Below, one piece after another: positions 24,046 through 49,466 of a stretch of DNA of 64,000 nucleotides. Position numbers and translations under genes: made by a program. A model generated the notes under the pieces. It made no database searches. It saw nothing but the letters and a program-made list of their open reading frames with translations, and had not been told where the DNA came from. Origin of the DNA: Coriobacteriaceae bacterium EMTCatB1 (lineage in GTDB: Bacteria; Actinomycetota; Coriobacteriia; Anaerosomatales; Anaerosomataceae); NCBI GenBank assembly GCA_001950395.1, contig BDLO01000001.1:1587979-1651978 (forward strand), given 5' to 3'. Each line of letters opens with the position of its first letter. The stretch's first letter is position 1.

Positions 24046-25002
24046 CTAGCCGAGCCCGATGCCGCGCCGTTCCGTGGCCACGAAGCTGCCGGGTTGCTGC
24101 TTCGCGTACTCAAGGAGGTCGTGACCCTGGTCCATGAGCTCGATGACGGAGCCGGGGAACCGCTCGACGACGGGGACGACGGCAGCACAGAGCGTGAGCG
24201 GCCCGTACCGCTTCGGCTCTCCGGAGCGGTCCGTGAGCGTGAAGCCGCCGCTCTCGCGATCCTCGTCCTCGTAGAAGTCGAGGATGCTGCCGTCGAACGA
24301 AGCGACGACGCTGTGCGCGATGCCCTCGGCTTTGTCCGGGTCGCAGGTCACGATGAAGTCGTCGCCGCCGAGGTGGCCGATGAAGGCGTCGTCGGGCTCC
24401 GCGAAGTTGACGGCCTCGAGCAGAAGCTCGGCGAGGTGGCGGATGAGCAGATCGCCCCGAGCGTGGCCGTAGCGGCTGTTGAACGCTCGGAAGCCGTCGA
24501 TGTCGAAGAAGATCACGGCGAACGGCTTGCGGCGCGCGAGCAGGAAACCGAGCCGTTCTTCGGTCAGCGCATTCGACGGAAGCCCGGTGAGCGCGTTCGC
24601 GAACCGCTCGCGCCGCATGCGGCGGATCACCATCTCGATGCGCGCGTCCAAGACGAGCGGGTCGATGGGCTTGGCGATGAAGTCGTCCGCCCCGGACTCG
24701 ATTGACATGATCTCGAACCCTGAACGGCCGAGCCCCGTCGCCATGATCACGGGCACGTACCTGGTTCGCGGGTCTGCCTTGATGCGCTTGCAGACTTCGA
24801 AGCCATCGATGTCTGGCAGGTTGATGTCGAGCACGACGATGTCGGGGATCGTTTCCGCCAGCGCTTGCAGCGCTCCGACGCCGTCGCTCGCTGTGAGGAC
24901 GGTGTAACCGCGCTCCTCGAGGGTCATCTGCGTCATTTGGCGGAGGGTCTGCGAGTCCTCCACGATGAGGACGGTGCCCTTGTGTGCTGCGGTGCGCTTC
25001 AC
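24046..25002 (-). CDS. Response regulator with degenerate GGDEF domain
   Basis: A 318-residue PleD-like regulator. The receiver domain (residues 12-128) has the phosphorylatable Asp in IVVLDINLPD near 57 and the conserved Lys in FIAKPIDP. The GGDEF domain (about 145-310) has FFDIDGFRAFNSRYGHARGD, but the signature reads GGDDF instead of GGDEF. The Glu-to-Asp change may weaken or abolish c-di-GMP synthesis. GTG 25002 was chosen because GGTGGAG lies just upstream; longer in-frame extensions are Cys/Arg-rich shadow. Its own kinase is not adjacent. Confidence 0.88.
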   Translation of the reverse strand: MKRTAAHKGTVLIVEDSQTLRQMTQMTLEERGYTVLTASDGVGALQALAETIPDIVVLDINLPDIDGFEVCKRIKADPRTRYVPVIMATGLGRSGFEIMSIESGADDFIAKPIDPLVLDARIEMVIRRMRRERFANALTGLPSNALTEERLGFLLARRKPFAVIFFDIDGFRAFNSRYGHARGDLLIRHLAELLLEAVNFAEPDDAFIGHLGGDDFIVTCDPDKAEGIAHSVVASFDGSILDFYEDEDRESGGFTLTDRSGEPKRYGPLTLCAAVVPVVERFPGSVIELMDQGHDLLEYAKQQPGSFVATERRGIGLG

Positions 25003-38198: not shown

Positions 38199-40760
38199 AT
38201 GTCGACGATGCGAACCGCCAAGCGCCGCCTGCACAACGAGATCGTCTACCCGCTTCTCGGCGCACTGTTGACGGTCGGCGTCGTGGCGGTGGTGCTCGGC
38301 GTGACCGTTGTGGGCAGCATCAGCGAATCGTGGGTCGATGAGCAAGCTGCGAGCACTGCTGGAGAAGCGAGCGGATTCCTGACGCAGCAAGCCGAGCATC
38401 TCAGCAGGGTGGCGAACCTCGCGTCAGCCGATCCAGTCTTGGAGTCGGCTGTCGCATCTGGTGATGCGGCGCGGATCGAGGCCCGTCTTGCAGTGCTGCG
38501 CAGCATTCTCGGTGTCGACGAGATGGTCGCGTTCGACGAACAAGGCCGCGTGCTTGCATCAGTCGCAGACACGAGCTTGCTTCCCGGCTCAGAACCGTTC
38601 CCCGAGGACATGGTGAAGTTCTCGCGCATCGGCATGGCGTACGTGACGTTCGTGGACATCGAGGGCGCCGAGCACCTCTGCGCTCTCTATCCGGTGCGAA
38701 CGAAGGAGTATCACGCTGCGACGCTCCTCGTCGGCCGGAAGCTCGACGACAGTCTCCTGTCAGCTCTGCAGCCACTGAGGGGTGGCGGCGTGGCGGTGTT
38801 CGGCGCGAAGGGGACGACCCCAGCGGTTCGGGTCTCGCCGCAGAGCGAGGACGCAGCGGAGCTGAAACGGGCGCTAAGGTCTGCAATCGCGGTCGACGTG
38901 ATGCGCGAAGGGAGCTCCTGGAGCATCGTGCTGCCCGCGAGCCGGTACCGCGCGAGCGCCGCTAGATTCCGCCTGCCTGGTGACCCGAGGCAGGGCTCGG
39001 TGTGGATCGTGGGAGCTGCTCCCACCACCATCGTCGAGCGGGTTCGTGCTTCGACGACGCTCCTCATCGTGTTGTGGACCGTCGTCGCCATCGGCTCGCT
39101 GTTCGGGCTGGGATGGTTCCTTGCAAACCGGGTGGGCGGACCCATCGCTGAGCTTGCGGAGTCGGTGGAGCGGGTCGCTTCCGGCGACTACGCTGTGGAG
39201 TTCCGTGCCGAGGACAACAACGAGATCGCGGTGTTGTCCGAGAACCTGGCGAAGATGACCGAGTCGCTGCGCGAGCGAACGGAGGGTCTCACGCGGAAGG
39301 TTCTCGAGCTGGCAACTCTGTACGAGATGAGCAGGGTGCTTGGTGCGACGCTGGAACTGGACGTCCTCTTGGACGCAGTCCTCGACTCGACGCTCAGAAT
39401 CCTCGGCGCAGACGTCGGCTTCGTCGCGCTGCTCGACAAAGAGACCCAAGAGCTGGATGTGTTGACGTGGCGTGGCATCCGTGCCAAGGACGCTCGGCCG
39501 GTCGGGGGCGGTTCGATGGCCGAGTGGGTGGTCAAGGAGGGGAGGTCGCTCCTCTTCAACCCGCCGTCAGACGGCGCTGGCGATGTCCCGCGATCGGAGC
39601 CGGCCACGGGTGCGTTCGCTGCGGTGTGCGTGCCGCTTCACGCTGCCGACGGTGTCATCGGCGCGCTGTACGTGGGGAGCTCGGATCCGACTGCACGATT
39701 CACGAGCGAGGACGTACGCCTGCTCTCAACCATCGCCAACCACGCGACCATCGCGGTGGGCAACATCGATCTGTACGCCTCGCTGCAGGAGGCATACCTG
39801 TCGACGGTGCGCGCCTTGGCTGCAGCCATCGACGCGAAAGACCCGTACACCCGAGGCCACTCGGAGCGAGTGGCGACCTACGCCCTCATGATCGCTGAGC
39901 GCATCGACTTGCCTTCGGACCAGAGAGACGCGTTGGAGATGGCGTCGTATCTGCACGACATCGGCAAGATCGGCATCTCGGAGGACATCTTGCTCAAGCC
40001 GGGCAAGCTCTCGGATGAGGAGATGGGCCAGATGCGGCACCATCCGCTCATCGGCGCCAACATCCTCAGACCGGTGTCCTTCCCCTGGCCGATACTGCCG
40101 GTCGTCCGCCATCACCACGAGCACTACGACGGCAACGGCTACCCAGCGGGACTGCGAGGCGAGGAGATCCCGCTATTGGCGCGGATCTTGACGGTCGCCG
40201 ACTCCTACGAGGCGATGACCTCAGACCGACCATATCGCCGCGGCCGCTCCACCCAAGAAGCTATCGCTGAGCTCAGGCGCTGCGCAGGCACGCAGTTCGA
40301 CCCGACGCTGGTGGAGGCATTCGTTCAGGTGCTGGAGTCCTCACAACAGGAGACCTCCGCTCTCGACGAGGTCGTGCCAGGTGCGCACGCGGAAGACGGC
40401 TCGCCTGAGCAGGAGGAGGCCTCGCTCACCGCGTTGTGCGAGGGCGTCCTCGCCGCGCTTCGGAGACTGGGCGGACCGCGGCTCTCGGCCAACGTTGAGC
40501 GAGAGGCGAACGCCCGCATGGCGGAGCGTGGGCTCCCGTACGTGTTGCGCTCGGGCAGACTCGTGGCCGCCATCGAAGGTGAGCCGCAGAGCGGCTCGTT
40601 GTCGAGCGCCGCCGAAGTCGTTATCGCTGTGGTAAGGGACGCAACGGGAAGCGGCCTTGCCGCGCAGTTCGTGAGCGAAGCGCTCCAGCAGCTCCCGCCC
40701 AGGATGCGCTCGGTGGCGCAGGGCATCGTCGACGAGGTGCTCGGCGGCTCAAGCGCGTAG
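38199..40760 (+). CDS. Membrane sensor HD-GYP c-di-GMP phosphodiesterase
   Basis: An 853-residue multidomain protein. Two transmembrane helices (about 17-42 and 283-307) bracket an extracellular Cache-like domain. HAMP follows (VGGPIAELAESVERVA near 312), then GAF (about 375-525), then HD-GYP (about 535-700) with intact catalytic residues: HSERVATYA, YLHDIGKIGI near 585, HHPLIGANIL, HHHEHYDGNGYP near 645 and DSYEAMTSDRPYRR near 675. A C-terminal 150-residue extension of unknown role resembles no domain I know. It should degrade c-di-GMP in response to an external cue. It is co-transcribed with the PstS-like lipoprotein. Confidence 0.93.
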   Translation: MSTMRTAKRRLHNEIVYPLLGALLTVGVVAVVLGVTVVGSISESWVDEQAASTAGEASGFLTQQAEHLSRVANLASADPVLESAVASGDAARIEARLAVLRSILGVDEMVAFDEQGRVLASVADTSLLPGSEPFPEDMVKFSRIGMAYVTFVDIEGAEHLCALYPVRTKEYHAATLLVGRKLDDSLLSALQPLRGGGVAVFGAKGTTPAVRVSPQSEDAAELKRALRSAIAVDVMREGSSWSIVLPASRYRASAARFRLPGDPRQGSVWIVGAAPTTIVERVRASTTLLIVLWTVVAIGSLFGLGWFLANRVGGPIAELAESVERVASGDYAVEFRAEDNNEIAVLSENLAKMTESLRERTEGLTRKVLELATLYEMSRVLGATLELDVLLDAVLDSTLRILGADVGFVALLDKETQELDVLTWRGIRAKDARPVGGGSMAEWVVKEGRSLLFNPPSDGAGDVPRSEPATGAFAAVCVPLHAADGVIGALYVGSSDPTARFTSEDVRLLSTIANHATIAVGNIDLYASLQEAYLSTVRALAAAIDAKDPYTRGHSERVATYALMIAERIDLPSDQRDALEMASYLHDIGKIGISEDILLKPGKLSDEEMGQMRHHPLIGANILRPVSFPWPILPVVRHHHEHYDGNGYPAGLRGEEIPLLARILTVADSYEAMTSDRPYRRGRSTQEAIAELRRCAGTQFDPTLVEAFVQVLESSQQETSALDEVVPGAHAEDGSPEQEEASLTALCEGVLAALRRLGGPRLSANVEREANARMAERGLPYVLRSGRLVAAIEGEPQSGSLSSAAEVVIAVVRDATGSGLAAQFVSEALQQLPPRMRSVAQGIVDEVLGGSSA

Positions 40761-42085: not shown

Positions 42086-43111
42086 ATGGCGTGGACGAAG
42101 CAGATGCCCGAGCGGCCGGTGGTCGCGGTTGCGGGCGCCACTGGGGCCGTCGGCGCCGAGATGCTCAAGGTCCTCGAGCAGCGCAGGTTCCCTGCCTCGG
42201 AGGTGCGGGCGCTCGCGTCTGAGCGCTCGGCGGGCAAGCGGCTGTCGTTCGCTGGCAGCGAAATGGTCGTCCAGGAGATGACCGAGAGCTCCTTCGAAGG
42301 CGTTGACATCGCGCTCTTCTCGGCCGGCGCATCCGTAAGCAAGCGGTTCCGCGATGCCGTCACGTCCGCTGGGGCGGTGATGATCGACAACTCGTCGGCG
42401 TTCAGGATGGAGCCGGACGTTCCGCTCGTGGTCCCAGAGGTGAATCCCGAGGACGCGCACACGCACGATGGCGTCATCGCCAACCCGAACTGCTCGACCA
42501 TCCAGATGGTGGTCGCGCTGGCTCCTCTGGAGCGCCTGGCCCCCATCAGGCGGGTCGTCGTGGCGACGTATCAGGCCGCGAGCGGCGCAGGACAGGCTGC
42601 CATGGACGAGCTGTACGAGCAGACGGCGGACTTCTTGGCGGGGCGGCCGATCGAGCCGAAGCGGTTCGCCCACAGGATCGCGTTCAACTGCATCCCGCAC
42701 ATCGACGTGTTCATGGCAGACGGCTCCACCAAAGAAGAGTGGAAGATGGTGGTCGAGACCCAGAAGATCATGCACCGACCCGATCTTGCCGTCGCCGCCA
42801 CCTGCGTGCGCGTTCCGGTGCTGCGCTGCCACTCGGAGGCGGTGACGGTCGAGTTCGCCGCGCCGGTCGATCTCGACGACGTGCGAGCAGCGCTCGCAGA
42901 AGCGCCGGGCGTGACTGTTCTCGACGACGTGGCGGCGAGTCTCTACCCGATGCCTGCGATGCTCGAGGGGACAGACGACGTGTACGTGGGTCGTATCAGG
43001 CGCGATTCGAGCGTCGAGAACGGCGTCCAGATGTGGGTCGTGGCCGATCAGCTGCGCAAGGGAGCTGCTCTCAACGCGGTGCAGATAGCCGAGATGCTGC
43101 TGCCGCGTTAA
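42086..43111 (+). CDS. asd: Aspartate-semialdehyde dehydrogenase
   Basis: A 341-residue Asd, which reduces aspartyl phosphate from LysC with NADPH. VAVAGATGAVGAEML near residue 12 is the NADP site, PNCSTIQMV carries the catalytic C136, YQAASGAGQAAMDEL near 163 is next, and HSEAVTVEF near 250 has the catalytic His. ATG 42086 immediately follows the lysC stop and has GAGGAG upstream. Confidence 0.97.
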   Translation: MAWTKQMPERPVVAVAGATGAVGAEMLKVLEQRRFPASEVRALASERSAGKRLSFAGSEMVVQEMTESSFEGVDIALFSAGASVSKRFRDAVTSAGAVMIDNSSAFRMEPDVPLVVPEVNPEDAHTHDGVIANPNCSTIQMVVALAPLERLAPIRRVVVATYQAASGAGQAAMDELYEQTADFLAGRPIEPKRFAHRIAFNCIPHIDVFMADGSTKEEWKMVVETQKIMHRPDLAVAATCVRVPVLRCHSEAVTVEFAAPVDLDDVRAALAEAPGVTVLDDVAASLYPMPAMLEGTDDVYVGRIRRDSSVENGVQMWVVADQLRKGAALNAVQIAEMLLPR

Positions 43112-43162
43112 TATTGACTCGCGGGCTGAGTCCACGAGCCGGTCGAACGCAGGGAGGGCGCC

Positions 43163-43840
43163 GTGTCAGAGGCCACGATTCTTATCGTCGAGGACGACCA
43201 GACCATCGCGCGATTCGTGCAGTTGGAGCTCGAACATGCCGGCTACCAGGTGCTGCGAGCGGGTGATGGTTCTGCGGCGATGGATCTGATGGCTGAGAGT
43301 GACGTCGACCTCGTGATACTCGACCTGATGCTGCCGGGCGTGGATGGGCTGGACGTCGCCAGGTTCATCCGCAAGAAGGGCATGGACGTCCCGATTCTCA
43401 TGCTCACCGCTCGCGCGGAGACGCACGACGTGGTCGTCGGTTTCGAGGCAGGCGCAGACGACTACCTGCGCAAGCCGTTCGAGATCCCGGAGCTGCTCTC
43501 TCGCGTTCGGGCCCTCCTGAAGCGGACGAAGACCGCACAAGAGCCGCGTTACGAGGCCTCTGGCGTCGCAATCGACCTCGAAAAGCGTCAAGCCACGCTC
43601 CACGGGCGGCCGCTCAACCTGACCAGCAAGGAGTTCGATCTGCTCGCGTATCTCGTGGCGAACGCTGGGCGTGTCGTCTCCCGCGACGAGATCTTCGAGG
43701 CGGTGTGGGGCGGGCAGCCTGCTTCTGAGAGCAACGTGATCGAAGTCTTCATCTGCCACCTGCGCACGAAGATCGGCGACAAGGAAGCGAAGATCATCCA
43801 GACCATACGCGGGGTCGGCTACTTCTTCGCCCGGGGATAG
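43163..43840 (+). CDS. OmpR-family response regulator
   Basis: A 225-residue two-component regulator. The receiver (1-120) has ILIVEDDQTIARF, the phospho-Asp in LVILDLMLPGVDG near 53, and YLRKPFEIPEL near 102. The winged-helix DNA-binding domain (130-225) has LTSKEFDLLAYLVANAGRVV and VIEVFICHLRTKIG. GTG 43163 follows AGGGAGG. The paired histidine kinase starts 1 nt after its stop. Target genes are unknown; the QueT-like gene downstream is a candidate. Confidence 0.95.
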   Translation: MSEATILIVEDDQTIARFVQLELEHAGYQVLRAGDGSAAMDLMAESDVDLVILDLMLPGVDGLDVARFIRKKGMDVPILMLTARAETHDVVVGFEAGADDYLRKPFEIPELLSRVRALLKRTKTAQEPRYEASGVAIDLEKRQATLHGRPLNLTSKEFDLLAYLVANAGRVVSRDEIFEAVWGGQPASESNVIEVFICHLRTKIGDKEAKIIQTIRGVGYFFARG

Positions 43841-45334
43841 ATGCGTCTGAAGTCCATACGCGCTCGAGTCCTGTACCTCGCCACCGTCTTCGCGGCGCTC
43901 CTCGTTGGAAGCGTCACTTTGGTGACGTACTTCGTCGTGGCGCAAAGCACCGTCTCTTCCGCACAGGCGACGTGTGCGCGACTCGCGTCGTTCGCTGCGG
44001 ATTCTTCGCGTCGAGCTGTCGAGAAGCTGGCAGAGCCGTCTTCCAGCGCGGTCGAGGTCGACACGATGGCGTGGGACGCGTTGTCGGAGTCTCTCCAGCC
44101 AGCCGGAGACCTCATCGATGGGGCAAGCGTCGCTCTGTGGGAAGCGAAGGGCGCCGCGGACCCTCTTCGGCGCGTGTGGTCTTCTCAAGCTGGAGCGCGT
44201 GTCCGCTCGCTTCAAGATGCTCGGGAGGCGCTCAGGCGAGGAGAGGCCGTCAGCACGACCGTGGGCAGCGGCGGATTCCTTGCGGGCTTCTTCACGAAGG
44301 CCGATCTCGGGCTGTGCATCTCCTACGTGCCACTGGAGCTGCCCAGTGGGCGGATGGCGCTGGTCGAGGTGTCGTACAAGCCGCAGCGTGAGGAGCGGAT
44401 GCTTGACCAAGCTCGCGCACCGATGGTCGCCGTCGGCGTGCTCGCGACGGCGCTCGCCATCCTGATGATGCAGGTCGTGATGGGATGGGTGCTCTCGCTC
44501 GTCGACGAGATCCGCCGCGCGGCAGACTCGATCGACGCCGGCCAGCTCGACACTCGGCTCCCCGAGCAAGGCGAGCACGAGATATCCGAGCTTGCGAGGT
44601 CGCTCAATGCGCTCATCGACCGCCTCAAGAAGCGTGCGGACGCGCAGACGCGATTCGTCGCGGACGCCTCGCACGAGCTGGCCACGCCGGTCGCTGGCAT
44701 CCGTGGGTACGTGAATATCCTCCGCGCATGGGGCGCCGAAGATCCCGATATGCGCGACGAGGCCATCGCCGCGATCGACCGCGAGTCCCGACGCATGGCC
44801 AAACTGTGCTCGGATCTTCTCGCGATGATCAGGAGCGAGGAGATCTTGGAGTTCAAGCACGTGAGGTACGACATCAACGCCGTCGCGCGGGAGGTGCTCG
44901 CGAACGCGGCGACCCGGTACATGGACAAGAACCTCGAGTTCCTGGGTCCAGACGAGGGGCCGCTTGCCCTATGGGGGGACCCCGATCGCATCGAGGAGGC
45001 CCTGGGCATCCTCGTCGACAACGCCTGCAAGTACACGCCTGCTGGAGGCCGCGTGCAGGTGAGCACGCGTCGCCACAAGGATCGCGTCGTCATCGAGGTG
45101 AGCGACACGGGGATCGGAATCCCGGAAGAGGACCTCCCGAACGTCTTCGAGCGCTTCTATCGCAGCGACGCCTCTCGCTCGAAGGAAACGGGGGGCTTCG
45201 GCCTCGGTCTGTCCATTGCGAAGCACATCGTGGATGCGAGCGGCGGCATGATCTGGGCCCGCAGCAAGCTCGGCTCTGGCACGACGTTCATCATCTCGCT
45301 TCCGAGGAACAAGCAGAAGGGCGCCAACGAATGA
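43841..45334 (+). CDS. Sensor histidine kinase
   Basis: A 497-residue membrane kinase. Two transmembrane helices (about 10-35 and 195-220) flank an extracytoplasmic sensor. HAMP follows (about 220-275), then the HisKA domain with ASHELATPVAGIRGYVNIL (phospho-His 278) and HATPase_c with N box LVDNACKYTP near 390, G1 SDTGIGIPEEDL near 425 and G2 GFGLGLSIAKHI near 455. It pairs with the OmpR-type regulator upstream. The signal it reads is unknown. Confidence 0.95.
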   Translation: MRLKSIRARVLYLATVFAALLVGSVTLVTYFVVAQSTVSSAQATCARLASFAADSSRRAVEKLAEPSSSAVEVDTMAWDALSESLQPAGDLIDGASVALWEAKGAADPLRRVWSSQAGARVRSLQDAREALRRGEAVSTTVGSGGFLAGFFTKADLGLCISYVPLELPSGRMALVEVSYKPQREERMLDQARAPMVAVGVLATALAILMMQVVMGWVLSLVDEIRRAADSIDAGQLDTRLPEQGEHEISELARSLNALIDRLKKRADAQTRFVADASHELATPVAGIRGYVNILRAWGAEDPDMRDEAIAAIDRESRRMAKLCSDLLAMIRSEEILEFKHVRYDINAVAREVLANAATRYMDKNLEFLGPDEGPLALWGDPDRIEEALGILVDNACKYTPAGGRVQVSTRRHKDRVVIEVSDTGIGIPEEDLPNVFERFYRSDASRSKETGGFGLGLSIAKHIVDASGGMIWARSKLGSGTTFIISLPRNKQKGANE

Positions 45335-45945
45335 CGGATAGCCGATGCGCTCGTCAGGAACGCCGCGATGGCGGCGTCGCCGTGGACGGTCGCAGCCGTA
45401 GGGCACGGTATGTCGCTCAGGCGGGGCTCATCGCAGCGCTGTATGCTGCATCGACGCTGCCGATGATCCAAAGCCCGCTCACGTACGGGCCTGTGCAAGT
45501 GCGTGTCTCCGAGGCGCTCACGGTGCTCGCGCTGTTCACGCCGGCGGCGGTTCCCGGGCTCACCATCGGGTGCGCAGTCGCGAACGGGGCGATGGTGGCC
45601 CAGTTCGGCCCGATGGCGCTGCTCGACGTCGTGTTCGGCTCGCTCGCCACGTTTCTCGGAGCCGCGTGGACGTATCGCCTCCGTCGGCGTCCCGCGATCG
45701 CGCTCCTGGGGCCCGTCGTCGCGAACGCCGTCATCGTGGCGGCGTACCTGCCCGTCGTGTTGGCCGCGACCGGGCTCTACGACACGACCGTGCTGGGGGT
45801 GCACATCAGCGATTCGTGGATGTGGATGTACCTTTTCGGTCTCGTCACCATCGCGGCTGGCGAGTTCGTCGCCGTGTACCTCGTGGGTGGACTCCTGGCT
45901 TTCGCGTTGCGGCTCTCGGGCGCCGCGCGTATCGTTCACGGATAG
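45331..45945 (+). CDS. QueT-like queuosine-precursor ECF transporter substrate component
   Basis: A 204-residue membrane protein of the QueT family (PF06177), the substrate-capturing unit of energy-coupling-factor importers for queuosine precursors. After a 28-residue polar N-terminus, IAALYAASTLPM, GPVQVRVSEALTVLALFTPAAVPGL near residue 60 and VFGSLATFLGAAWTYRLRRRP near 105 are family blocks. ATG 45331 overlaps the kinase stop, so it is co-expressed with the two-component genes. No PreQ1 riboswitch can fit upstream because it lies inside the kinase gene. Confidence 0.82.
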   Translation: MTDSRCARQERRDGGVAVDGRSRRARYVAQAGLIAALYAASTLPMIQSPLTYGPVQVRVSEALTVLALFTPAAVPGLTIGCAVANGAMVAQFGPMALLDVVFGSLATFLGAAWTYRLRRRPAIALLGPVVANAVIVAAYLPVVLAATGLYDTTVLGVHISDSWMWMYLFGLVTIAAGEFVAVYLVGGLLAFALRLSGAARIVHG

Positions 45946-45966
45946 GCGCACGGCGAAGGGGGTCTC

Positions 45967-47784
45967 GTGAGCGACGAAGGCGTCATCAGCACCGGGCGAC
46001 CAGCTGCGAGGGAGCGAGAGCCGCTCATCGTTCACGACAAGCCGTCCTGCACTGAGTGCTGGGGTTGCGTGAGGGTGTGCCCGGTGAGGGCCATCCGAGT
46101 CGTCGAGGGGCGTTCGGAAATCATCCAAGAGAAGTGTGTCGCATGCGGGCTGTGTGTCGGGGAGTGCGGCGCCCGGGCGCACAAGGTCCGGGACGACACC
46201 CCAGCCGTTCGAGAGCTCTTGCGCTCCAGACGGCCCGTGGTGGCGCTGCTGGCATCGGAGTTCACGGCTGCGCTGCATCCGTTGACGCCGCTCGCCGTCG
46301 AGCGAGCGCTCGCAGGTCTCGGCTTCTCGTCTGTGGAGACGACTGCGCTCGGCGAGGAGATCGTCGCCATCGAGTACGAGCGAATCGCCGCGCGGGAAGG
46401 CACGCCGTTCACCATACGGTCGACGTGCCCGGTGGTGGTCGACTTCGTCCGGAAGTACCACCCTGCGTTCGTCCCGGCTCTTGCTCCCGTGGTGCCACCT
46501 TACGTGGCACAGGCCCGCCTCATCAGGGCGATGTACAGCGACGACGTGGCGATCGTGTACGTGAGCCCGTGCTTCGCTCGCAAGGACGAGGTCTTCGACC
46601 CCCATCTCGAAGGACCTGTGGACGCGGCGATCGACTTCCTGGAGTTGAAGCAGATGATCGTCTCCCAGGAGCGCGGGGGCGGGCACCGGGCCATGCATGC
46701 GAACGTGACTGCGCGCCCCCGGATCCTGAAGCAACTCTCGCTCACTGACGGGTTCCCGAGAGAAGCGCTCGCCAAAGGATCCCCGACCGATGGCCAGGTC
46801 CACGTAGTGCGTGGGATCCCCGATCTCGATCGGCTGCTCAAGGCGATCGCGGCAGGAGAGACCGCTCCGGCAGTCATCGATGCGCTCAACTGCGAGGGCT
46901 GCATCGATGGCCCCGCCGTCAATCCCGGGATGTCGCTCTTCGCGAAGCGCAACGTGGACCGTGCCGCGCGCACGGCGCCTGGGGTCGCGGCCGTGAGCAC
47001 TCGTACGCTCATGGAGGTGCTGCCGAAGGTCGAAGTCGTGCGGTCGTTCCGCCCCGATCCCGTGCACCTGCCGCGGCCGAGCGACGCTCTCATCGACGCG
47101 CTGCTCGCCGACGGAGGGTTCGCGTCGCGCGCGGAGGTGCTCGATTGCGGCGCGTGCGGGTATCCGACGTGCGTTGAGCACGCGGAGGCGATCTTCAGGG
47201 GCGACTCGTCTTGGGAGATGTGCTTCCCTCTCCAGCGGCGGCGCCTGCAGCAAGCCGAGACCGCGCTCGAAGCTCTGGTGACCATCGACGAGCTCACGGG
47301 GGTGTGGAACGACCGCGCATTCGATGAACGGCTCGGGCTCGAGATGGCGAGACATGCGCGATACGGCACGCCGCTGTCGCTCGTGCTGCTGGACATTGAC
47401 GGCTTCGGGGCCGTGAACGACCTCCTCGGCGAATCCGGCGCGGACGAAGTCCTGAAGCGGATCGCGGAGACCCTCGCAGGGAGCGTTCGCTCCACCGACA
47501 TGGTCGCTCGCCTACGCGGAGACCAGTTCGCGGTCCTGCTTCCTGGAGTCGGCAAGACGGCGGCGTTCGCGGTCGCCGAGAAGCTGCGTGCGCTCGTCCG
47601 AGAGCAGCGCATGCCAGCGGTGAGCGGGTATACAGGTGATGTGCGCGTCACGATGTCGGCTGGGGTCGCATCAGCTGACAAGGAGATGCTCGGCGGCGAC
47701 GACCTGCTCGCAGCCGCAGAGAACGCGCTTCTCGAGGCGGTCCAGCAAGGATCGGATCGGGTCGGTATAGCGGCATCAGGATAG
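45967..47784 (+). CDS. Ferredoxin/[FeFe]-hydrogenase-like/Fe-S/GGDEF fusion (redox-sensing signal protein)
   Basis: A 605-residue fusion. Residues 28-70: 2[4Fe-4S] ferredoxin (CTECWGCVRVCP, CVACGLCVGECG). About 80-370: [FeFe]-hydrogenase large-subunit-like domain with reduced H-cluster motifs: RSTCPVVVDF (one Cys, not TSCCP), SPCFARKDE and NCEGCIDGP, so the diiron active site is probably not catalytic. About 395-425: Fe-S (Fes4-like) motif CGACGYPTC with a later C. About 435-605: GGDEF domain (TIDELTGVWNDRAF, LLDIDGFGAVND) with signature RGDQF, likely inactive or altered. It probably senses redox state or H2-linked electron flow. GTG 45967 follows AAGGGGG; amrS starts 9 bp later. Confidence 0.88.
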   Translation: MSDEGVISTGRPAAREREPLIVHDKPSCTECWGCVRVCPVRAIRVVEGRSEIIQEKCVACGLCVGECGARAHKVRDDTPAVRELLRSRRPVVALLASEFTAALHPLTPLAVERALAGLGFSSVETTALGEEIVAIEYERIAAREGTPFTIRSTCPVVVDFVRKYHPAFVPALAPVVPPYVAQARLIRAMYSDDVAIVYVSPCFARKDEVFDPHLEGPVDAAIDFLELKQMIVSQERGGGHRAMHANVTARPRILKQLSLTDGFPREALAKGSPTDGQVHVVRGIPDLDRLLKAIAAGETAPAVIDALNCEGCIDGPAVNPGMSLFAKRNVDRAARTAPGVAAVSTRTLMEVLPKVEVVRSFRPDPVHLPRPSDALIDALLADGGFASRAEVLDCGACGYPTCVEHAEAIFRGDSSWEMCFPLQRRRLQQAETALEALVTIDELTGVWNDRAFDERLGLEMARHARYGTPLSLVLLDIDGFGAVNDLLGESGADEVLKRIAETLAGSVRSTDMVARLRGDQFAVLLPGVGKTAAFAVAEKLRALVREQRMPAVSGYTGDVRVTMSAGVASADKEMLGGDDLLAAAENALLEAVQQGSDRVGIAASG

Positions 47785-47793
47785 GAGGGCACG

Positions 47794-48804
47794 GTGCGAG
47801 AGGCCGACCTCTGGGAGACCTTAGAGGGCGGCGTCGTGCACTGTCTGCTGTGCCCTCACAGCTGCCGCATCGCAGACGGAGCGGCGGGTATCTGCGGCGC
47901 GAGACGCAACGTGGGCGGACGGCTCTTCGCGGCGACCTACGGCGAGGTCTCCTCGATTGCAGCCGATCCTATCGAGAAGAAGCCGGTCTTCCACTACCGT
48001 CCGGGAACGCGGGCGCTCTCGCTCGGCAGCGTCGGGTGCAGCATGCGCTGTCTGCACTGCCAGAACTGGAGCATCAGCCGGGCGCGGCTTGAGGACGGCG
48101 GCGTCAGGAGGATTGCACCGGAAGAAGTGGTCGCCATCGCGCGCCTCGAGTCGTGCGAGGGAGTCGCGTTCACGTACAACGAGCCGGTGATCTGGGCGGA
48201 GTTCGTGAAGGACACCGCAGCGCGCGCGAGAGACGCCGGGCTGTACACCGTGATGGTCACCAACGGCTACGTCACCGAGGCGGGGCTCGACTACCTCGGC
48301 TCGGTGATCGACGTGTGGCGTGTCGATGTCAAGGCGTTCGACGACGAGACCTATCGACGCCTGTGCAAGGTCCGCTCGATGCTGCCTATCTTGGAGGCCG
48401 CCGTCCGGGCCAAGGAGCGGTGGGGCATGCACGTGGAAGTCGTCACCAACGTCATCCCGTCCGTGAACGACTCCGCAGAGACTGCGCGGGGAATCGCTCG
48501 ATGGATTCGCGATGCCCTCGGGGCGAAGACGCCGTGGCACGTCACACGCTTCTTCCCGTACCTCGAGCTCTCGCACCTGCCGCCGACGCCTGTCGAGACG
48601 CTCCGGCGCTTCCGCGACATCGGCAGGGAAGAAGGGCTCGCGTTCGTGTACCTCGGCAACGTCGCAGAGCCAGGAGGCGAGGACACAGTGTGCCCGCGGT
48701 GCGGCGCCCTCGCGATCGGTCGCGACGGCTATCGCATCGTCAGCCGCGCGACGCGAGGCGGTGCGTGTGCCGCATGCGGAGAGCCGCTCGGGCTGGTTGA
48801 ATGA
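47794..48804 (+). CDS. amrS: AmmeMemoRadiSam system radical SAM enzyme
   Basis: A 336-residue radical SAM protein of the AmrS family. An N-terminal CLLCPHSCRIADGAAGICGAR segment gives extra cysteines. The radical SAM cluster motif is GCSMRCLHCQNW near residue 85 (CxxxCxxC), followed by GVAFTYNEPVIWAEFV near 122 and a glycine-rich SAM region. A C-terminal CPRC...CAAC zinc-type pair closes the chain. The family works with AmmeMemo proteins of unknown function, which are not in the window. GTG 47794 has AGGAGGG. It lies between the Fe-S/GGDEF fusion and the Sec-DsbA gene. Confidence 0.93.
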   Translation: MREADLWETLEGGVVHCLLCPHSCRIADGAAGICGARRNVGGRLFAATYGEVSSIAADPIEKKPVFHYRPGTRALSLGSVGCSMRCLHCQNWSISRARLEDGGVRRIAPEEVVAIARLESCEGVAFTYNEPVIWAEFVKDTAARARDAGLYTVMVTNGYVTEAGLDYLGSVIDVWRVDVKAFDDETYRRLCKVRSMLPILEAAVRAKERWGMHVEVVTNVIPSVNDSAETARGIARWIRDALGAKTPWHVTRFFPYLELSHLPPTPVETLRRFRDIGREEGLAFVYLGNVAEPGGEDTVCPRCGALAIGRDGYRIVSRATRGGACAACGEPLGLVE

Positions 48805-48815
48805 AGGAGAGAGCC

Positions 48816-49466
48816 GTGGCTGACGATCGGTCGCAAGCAGCAGTCTCGCGCGTGCTGGTGTTCTACGACTACGCTTGACCTTTCTGTTTCGTGGACCAGT
48901 TCCGGTTCCTTAAGCTCCGCGAAGAGATGGGCGTGTACCTCATGGGTGTGCCGTTCGAGCTTCGGCCGGACATGCCAGACGAAGGACTGTCGGCGTCACG
49001 CGACGGGCTCTCGCATTCCCCGCGTGTCGAAGAGCGGTTGATCCAGCTCGCTGCCAAGGAAGGCGAGCGCATGGTGCTGCCCGACCTCGTGCCGAAGACG
49101 CACAACGCCATGGTGCTTGCGGAAATCGGACGCGACAGAGGGGACGATGTGTTCTGGCCGCTTCACCTCGACATCTTCAGGGAGTACTTCGTCGCCGGCA
49201 GGGACATCGGCGATCGGAGCGTGCTCGTCCCCGTCGGTCTGAAGCACGGGATCCCGGAGTCCGAGATGACTGAAGCGTGGGACTCGGGGCGGTACGACGA
49301 GCGGCTCCACGAGTTCAGGCACCTCGCTCTTCACCTTGGGATTCAGGAGACACCTGCCGCGATCATCTGCGACGAGCTGATCGTCGGCTCGCGGCCCTAC
49401 GAAGTCCTGCGCGCTGCCGTCCAACGGTGCCTGGTGCGGCCGGACAACGTCCAGAACGCTGAGTAG
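48816..49466 (+). CDS. Selenocysteine-containing DsbA/FrnE-family thioredoxin-fold protein (UGA = Sec21)
   Basis: From GTG 48816 (AAGGAG 6 nt upstream) one frame runs to 49466, broken only by TGA at 48876-48878. Read as Sec it encodes 216 residues of a DsbA-family oxidoreductase with active site YA-U-PFC-FVDQF, where relatives have CPFC. FELRPDMPDEGLSAS near residue 50 is typical of FrnE/2-hydroxychromene-isomerase-like DsbA proteins, and the C-terminal half has HLDIFREYFVAGRDIGD. There is no signal peptide, so it is cytosolic. A SECIS-like hairpin follows the UGA. It lies 11 bp after amrS. It is the second gene in this window with UGA exactly at the catalytic Cys. Confidence 0.92.
48893..48909 (+). 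promoter_or_regulatory. Candidate SECIS element of Sec-DsbA gene
   Basis: GGACC (48893-48897), loop AGTTCC and GGTTCC (48904-48909) form a 5-bp stem with one bulged U and a loop containing GU, 14 nt after the UGA. A bulged U plus a GU loop is the minimal SECIS pattern known from E. coli fdhF, although there the bulge is on the 5' side. Folding was judged by eye. Confidence 0.6.

Follow-up and report, generated by a model that had tools for sequence, protein, structure and literature searches.

Within a 64,000-nucleotide stretch of the genome of Coriobacteriaceae bacterium EMTCatB1 (hereafter the window; the host genome is a single complete contig of 1.84 Mb), the plus-strand gene at positions 45967-47784 encodes a 605-amino acid protein that joins ferredoxin motifs, a [FeFe]-hydrogenase-like domain (H-domain), a further FeS motif and a degenerate GGDEF domain, and this fusion is a single protein conserved order-wide in subsurface Coriobacteriia. 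As both ends of the protein in the window's family are devoid of the enzyme residues, the fusion there probably acts not as an enzyme but as a switch that responds to redox and nucleotides. To the fuller reading, that of a soluble Fe-S sensor-transducer made of two pseudo-enzyme halves, in which the family would have given up c-di-GMP synthesis as its output in favour of non-catalytic switching in response to nucleotides, we give an even chance. By its predicted architecture, the fusion is new among sensory [FeFe]-hydrogenase-like proteins, and no described [FeFe]-hydrogenase-GGDEF fusion was found in the open literature (subscription papers being outside the scope of the search).

Layout and conservation of the fusion protein

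The open reading frame starts with GTG, is preceded by an AAGGGGG ribosome-binding site (45956-45962) and runs through 605 codons in one frame with no internal stop. Pfam matched Fer4_10 at residues 21-67 (31.5 bits), Fe_hyd_lg_C (PF02906) at residues 91-316 (100 bits; cut-off 22.1), FeS (PF04060) at residues 392-421 (33.8 bits) and GGDEF (PF00990) at residues 439-597 (120 bits), with no match to a PAS domain in the protein. Residues 1-365 of the AlphaFold2 model (mean pLDDT 91, pTM 0.77) align to solved [FeFe]-hydrogenases (CbA5H, Z 34.2; CpI, Z 33), and residues 435-605 to GGDEF structures (3ign, Z 28.0; PleD, Z ~27). Pfam, a PDB profile search and the model agree on the following order of features, all on the plus strand: (i) two [4Fe-4S] ferredoxin motifs (46024-46176), each with the spacing Cx2Cx2Cx3C, at Cys 28/31/34/38 and 57/60/63/67, (ii) the H-domain (residues 91-365; 46237-47061), with Z scores of 33-34 against CpI and CbA5H, (iii) a C-terminal FeS motif, Cx2Cx4Cx16C (47146-47223; Cys 394, 397, 402 and 419), spaced as in group C/D HydS (PMC8163306), (iv) a helix of residues 420-437 (47224-47277), assigned from the secondary structure of the model, which could act as a signalling stalk, and (v) the GGDEF domain (47281-47757). 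The sequence-only reading had proposed just such a polypeptide, with ferredoxin, hydrogenase-like, Fe-S and GGDEF parts; the domain search that it called for returned PF02906, PF04060 and PF00990 alike, and the fold model confirms the assignment.

That reading had also called for a survey of the architecture, and had named a frameshift fusing two genes as the finding that would speak against it. Proteins of this architecture, 48-81% identical, were found throughout the order, so that neither a frameshift nor an assembly fusion nor chance can explain it; the frame is intact in the window and open in nearly all orthologues, and chance motif matches are further excluded by Pfam, fold and conservation. 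By sequence, the relatives are MAGs that carry the label Coriobacteriia or Anaerosomatales. In 63 of 69 Anaerosomatales genomes, the fusion (split over two contigs in one genome) is the sole PF02906 protein, scoring ~80-118 bits in most cases as compared with 215-320 bits for the true hydrogenases in other families of the class.

All 16 cluster-ligand cysteines, including the eight of the ferredoxin motifs, are invariant (n = 44 aligned sequences), and dN/dS is well below 1 across all domains of the gene. Together with the synteny kept across the order, this leaves a negligible probability that we are dealing with a decaying gene whose function is gone, a view to which a single genome lends some colour: its copy is broken or cut by an assembly gap. 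This copy has further lost ferredoxin cysteines, FeS cysteines and the GGDEF signature, possibly reflecting gene decay in one genus.

The hydrogenase-like half

Comparison with CpI identified three motifs in the H-domain: L1, RSTCP (46417-46431), where C154 corresponds to CpI C300 and T153 replaces C299; L2, SPCFARKDE (46564-46590), where C202 corresponds to C355 and R205 replaces K358; and L3, CEGC (46891-46902), where C309 and C312 correspond to C499 and C503 and stand one residue closer together than in the CxxxC of hydrogenases (CPGGC in CpI). The pared-down TCP, PC and CxxC motifs noticed earlier are recovered here as the STCP, SPC and CEGC of L1 to L3. The H-domain fold is present with its four cubane cysteines (C154, C202, C309 and C312; invariant, n = 44), and the surroundings of the di-iron site differ from those of CpI at three points, namely T for C299, R for K358 and the shortened L3. 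The C299 position is occupied by T in 50 of 51 GGDEF-type sequences, and the K358 position by K in none of the 51, as against 16 of 19 histidine-kinase-type sequences and two true hydrogenases. Both C299 and M497 are variable in HydS too (PMC8163306), so that the loss of C299 alone is not decisive.

The maturase search covered HydG in 69 genomes of the order and HydF in 41 genomes of relatives; HydG above the cut-off (312 bits) was found in none of the 69, and HydF above the cut-off (325 bits) in none of the 41. Four genomes of families f7 and f11 encode HydG-like radical-SAM proteins scoring 160-190 bits, which is below the cut-off, and these were not counted; HydF matches of 50-93 bits, present in all 41 genomes, were judged to be other GTPases, being far below the cut-off and present in 14 of 14 control genomes as well. 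Among the PF02906 proteins of the order, the survey detected none that is a true [FeFe] hydrogenase; a second [FeFe] hydrogenase in the window genome, considered as a regulatory target, was discarded, no other PF02906 protein being present there. The absence of HydG and HydF, the CxxC form of L3 and the replacement of both C299 and K358 make H2 sensing via an H-cluster unlikely, while a plain [4Fe-4S] is still plausible given the four invariant cubane cysteines. Judged from these features, the H-domain is much more likely to hold a lone [4Fe-4S] than an H-cluster. The earlier argument that the loss of TSCCP speaks against H2 catalysis therefore holds, reinforced by the missing maturation genes and the lost K358 equivalent; lacking several of the defining features that were tested, the predicted protein is not filed as a hydrogenase.

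TmHydS (group C, M2f) and TamHydS (group D, M2e) resemble the fusion in their two N-terminal [4Fe-4S] clusters, H-domain and C-terminal Cx2Cx4Cx16C motif, as well as in the replacement of C299 and a small residue at M353 (PMC8163306, PMC13104023). In contrast to the fusion, whose genome is devoid of HydG and HydF, they bind the H-cluster and turn over H2; the fusion is further set apart by the loss of K358 and by its L3 CxxC (as compared with CpI), and carries GGDEF where these proteins have PAS or no output domain. The PAS domain of group C and the hydrogenase operon neighbourhood of group C/D HydS are both missing from the fusion. A genuine H2 sensor carrying an H-cluster, as in these groups, would explain the common layout down to the C-terminal motif, could accommodate the variability of C299 and M497, and would suit the cultured Anaerosomatales, which consume H2 (PMC9686372). 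However, these isolates use [NiFe] hydrogenases (PMC9686372), and the lack of HydG in 69 genomes and of HydF in 41, the want of a true [FeFe] hydrogenase across the order, the CxxC L3 and the replaced K358 make such a sensor highly improbable.

Apart from the GGDEF fusions, the closest sequence relatives of the ferredoxin-H-domain-FeS module are histidine-kinase fusions. The module is fused to HisKA-HATPase_c kinases in Clostridia, Myxococcota, Dehalococcoidia, Gemmatimonadota, Ignavibacteria, Riflebacteria and others, and in eight of the kinase-type genomes the weaker, fusion-type match shares a contig with a true [FeFe] hydrogenase, mostly at a distance of <=3 kb; six further kinase-type genomes, all metagenome-derived, showed neither a true hydrogenase nor HydG above the cut-off. 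The attachment of the same module to kinases in several phyla, often beside true hydrogenases, supports a sensor role. With the same L1 to L3 and FeS motifs, the kinase fusions are akin to HydDB [FeFe] group C1 (putative, histidine-kinase-linked), their membership of which is itself putative; the fusion differs in its GGDEF output and in having no adjoining true [FeFe] hydrogenase. The outputs listed for [FeFe] groups in HydDB are kinase, chemotaxis and phosphatase, with no cyclase-linked group (PMC5037454). HydDB [NiFe] group 2c (putative, diguanylate cyclase-linked) also wires a hydrogenase-type sensor to c-di-GMP (PMC5037454), but is an unrelated [NiFe] protein, and the fusion has no [NiFe] subunit. 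Canonical GGDEF fusions were also found beyond the order (n = 3), each as the sole PF02906 protein and with HydG not above the cut-off. The six histidine-kinase fusions from genomes devoid of both a true [FeFe] hydrogenase and HydG above the cut-off suggest that, in several phyla, the H-domain module may not need an H-cluster.

The GGDEF half

An alignment to WspR and PleD shows the GGDEF domain of the window protein to be catalytically degenerate: it lacks the equivalents of PleD K332, E371, K442 and R446, whilst those of D327 and D344 are kept, as are the I-site and the acid at the third A-site position. The A-site (47515-47529) reads RGDQF instead of GG[DE]EF, with D519 kept in the third position and Q520 at the position of PleD E371; K332 corresponds to G481, and the phosphate-binding K442 and R446 correspond to V592 and S596 (47740-47754). 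The I-site RxxD (47488-47499; R508 and D511), together with K539 as third I-site residue (PleD R390 position), is invariant in 22 of 22 degenerate and 28 of 28 canonical sequences. The canonical relatives invariably carry K481, H489, G517 and E520, and likewise Y589 and K592 where aligned. Among the degenerate sequences, K481, H489, E520, Y589 and K592 are each found in 0 of 22, the equivalents of PleD K332, E371 and K442 thus being lost throughout, and R596 (PleD R446 equivalent) is retained in 3 and lost in 19. D476, D493, D519 and F521 are kept, like the three I-site residues, in all 22 and N484 in 20; position 517, the first of the A-site, is mostly non-G, and within the clade positions 1 and 4 of this site vary, the fourth having changed from E to Q, R or T.

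A tree built from the N-terminal half only, with GGDEF left out and the kinase fusions as outgroup, united the 22 degenerate sequences as a single clade (support 100/100), nested among the canonical GGDEF fusions; on this topology, the loss of cyclase residues is a single event, confined to the window's family. Pairs compared within the degenerate clade gave a GGDEF dN/dS of ~0.14-0.3, an estimate by which purifying selection continues to act on the domain. A Gly-Tyr pair (554-555) is invariant in the clade and missing from the canonical relatives.

In the window protein, c-di-GMP synthesis is very probably gone; the protein would at most sense c-di-GMP or GTP, and, several of the tested defining features being absent from its sequence, it is not filed as a diguanylate cyclase. 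The doubt about cyclase activity raised earlier from RGDQF was well founded, several further GTP-handling residues being lost besides the signature itself. Activity in spite of RGDQF might be argued from the intact metal-binding acids and from the AGDEF and SGDEF first-position variants, which can be active (PMC3974145), but the replacement of E in the fourth position, the drift of positions 1 and 4 and the loss of all K332 and K442 and most R446 equivalents make it very unlikely. Taken as a whole, the sequence-only reading is upheld in its domain assignment and in questioning both H2 catalysis and cyclase activity; its notion of a redox-to-c-di-GMP sensor suits canonical relatives found elsewhere in the order, in other families, and very probably fails for the window protein at the c-di-GMP-making step.

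The lost A-site combined with an I-site intact in 22 of 22 sequences is the pattern of degenerate-GGDEF c-di-GMP receptors. To our knowledge, none of PopA, PelD, CdgA and CC3396 has an iron-sulfur or hydrogenase-like input module. These four proteins share with the fusion a degenerate A-site and a non-catalytic role, predicted in the case of the fusion, with the I-site intact in those of the I-site type (PMC3974145, PMC7288161); PopA, PelD and CdgA are established c-di-GMP receptors (PMC3974145), and the GGDEF domain of Caulobacter CC3396 is an established GTP sensor (PMC7288161). Retention of the I-site was rejected as proof of c-di-GMP binding, as by itself it is not significant: of the 30 GGDEF positions fixed in the canonical sequences, 16 are still so in the degenerate ones, and the probability that all three I-site residues are kept is P ~0.14. 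The degenerate A-site might instead bind GTP/GDP with Mg as in CC3396 (PMC7288161), nucleotide occupancy rather than c-di-GMP gating the sensor; the metal- and guanine-binding acids D476, D493 and D519 (22 of 22) and N484 (20 of 22) are in keeping with this. The lost phosphate-binding equivalents of K332, K442 and R446, which should weaken triphosphate binding, and the bulky or variable first A-site residue argue against such a GTP switch, which we regard as unlikely.

Proposed signalling and genomic context

The N-terminal 420 residues have the tripartite layout seen in putative sensory [FeFe]-hydrogenases (2x[4Fe-4S], H-domain and C-terminal [4Fe-4S]), most likely carrying [4Fe-4S] clusters only, with a lone cubane in place of the H-cluster. 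From the domain set, we infer redox or ligand sensing by the clusters; the module may read the state of low-potential electrons (ferredoxin) or a cluster-reactive signal, the change passing via the C-terminal cluster and helix 420-437 to the GGDEF domain. The redox state of the C-terminal cluster of TamHydS, a protein without output domain, is unchanged by H2 (PMC13104023), an observation that makes a plain relay of electrons through the module less convincing. For the greater part of the order, the output would be a normal diguanylate cyclase, the ancestral form driving c-di-GMP synthesis, often beside a phosphodiesterase. In the window's family, it would be a non-catalytic switch, most likely binding c-di-GMP through its intact I-site or, as the less favoured option, GTP through what is left of the A-site, and its output would proceed via protein contact with a partner; cluster content, sensed cue, I-site binding and output are all deduced.

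The signalling route of putative sensory [FeFe]-hydrogenases is an open question in the field. Here, a cousin of the HydS module forms one polypeptide with an enzymatic read-out, and signalling could thus be measured as c-di-GMP made according to redox state, using for instance the canonical orthologues L062 or L075. Moreover, one clade has dropped the cyclase and kept sensor and synteny, a natural experiment that separates sensing from catalysis, and the family suggests that one branch of the H-domain proteins may dispense with the H-cluster.

The fusion gene lies 21 bases downstream of a queT transporter gene (45331-45945, plus strand; PF06177), which adjoins it in 47 of 50 loci, that is, in every Anaerosomatales locus, and is followed after 9 bases by a gene for the radical SAM enzyme of the AmmeMemoRadiSam system (47794-48804, plus strand; TIGR04337, 310.6 bits, cut-off 220), kept in 44 of 50 loci, all inside the order. 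A promoter/terminator scan over 43000-49000 gave no match. Few papers of the open literature name the AmmeMemoRadiSam system, with one mention each. The cluster of radical-SAM enzymes needs one-electron reduction. The conserved gene directly downstream allows a non-signalling role, in which the module would deliver low-potential electrons to this enzyme and the GGDEF remnant would be a dimerisation scaffold. We hold this to be improbable, as related modules in other phyla are fused to kinases, the three GGDEF fusions beyond the order have no such radical-SAM neighbour in the flanks examined, and the canonical relatives retain a complete cyclase. No more probable, in our estimate, is a double pseudo-enzyme in these anaerobic subsurface bacteria, in which a pseudo-hydrogenase, reading cellular redox with only a [4Fe-4S] where the H-cluster would sit, and a c-di-GMP-binding pseudo-cyclase would form an AND-type switch over the adjacent AmmeMemoRadiSam modification system.

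Five other GGDEF proteins with intact A-sites and two EAL domains are encoded in the window genome; c-di-GMP is thus probably made elsewhere in the cell, and probably present in it. No PilZ protein was found in this genome. A GAF/PocR-HD-GYP gene, likely a phosphodiesterase, lies in the upstream flank of 17 of 26 canonical-side loci (one of them being truncated before the GGDEF domain) versus 0 of 21 degenerate loci, a contrast whose Fisher P of 1e-6 is overstated because the loci are related by descent. The window itself contains, at a greater distance upstream of the fusion gene, a HAMP-GAF-HD-GYP (HD_5) gene (38199-40760) upstream of lysC-asd, likely encoding a c-di-GMP phosphodiesterase, and a second atypical GGDEF-like match (24343-24594, minus strand; GGDDF), partial and scoring 50.8 bits.
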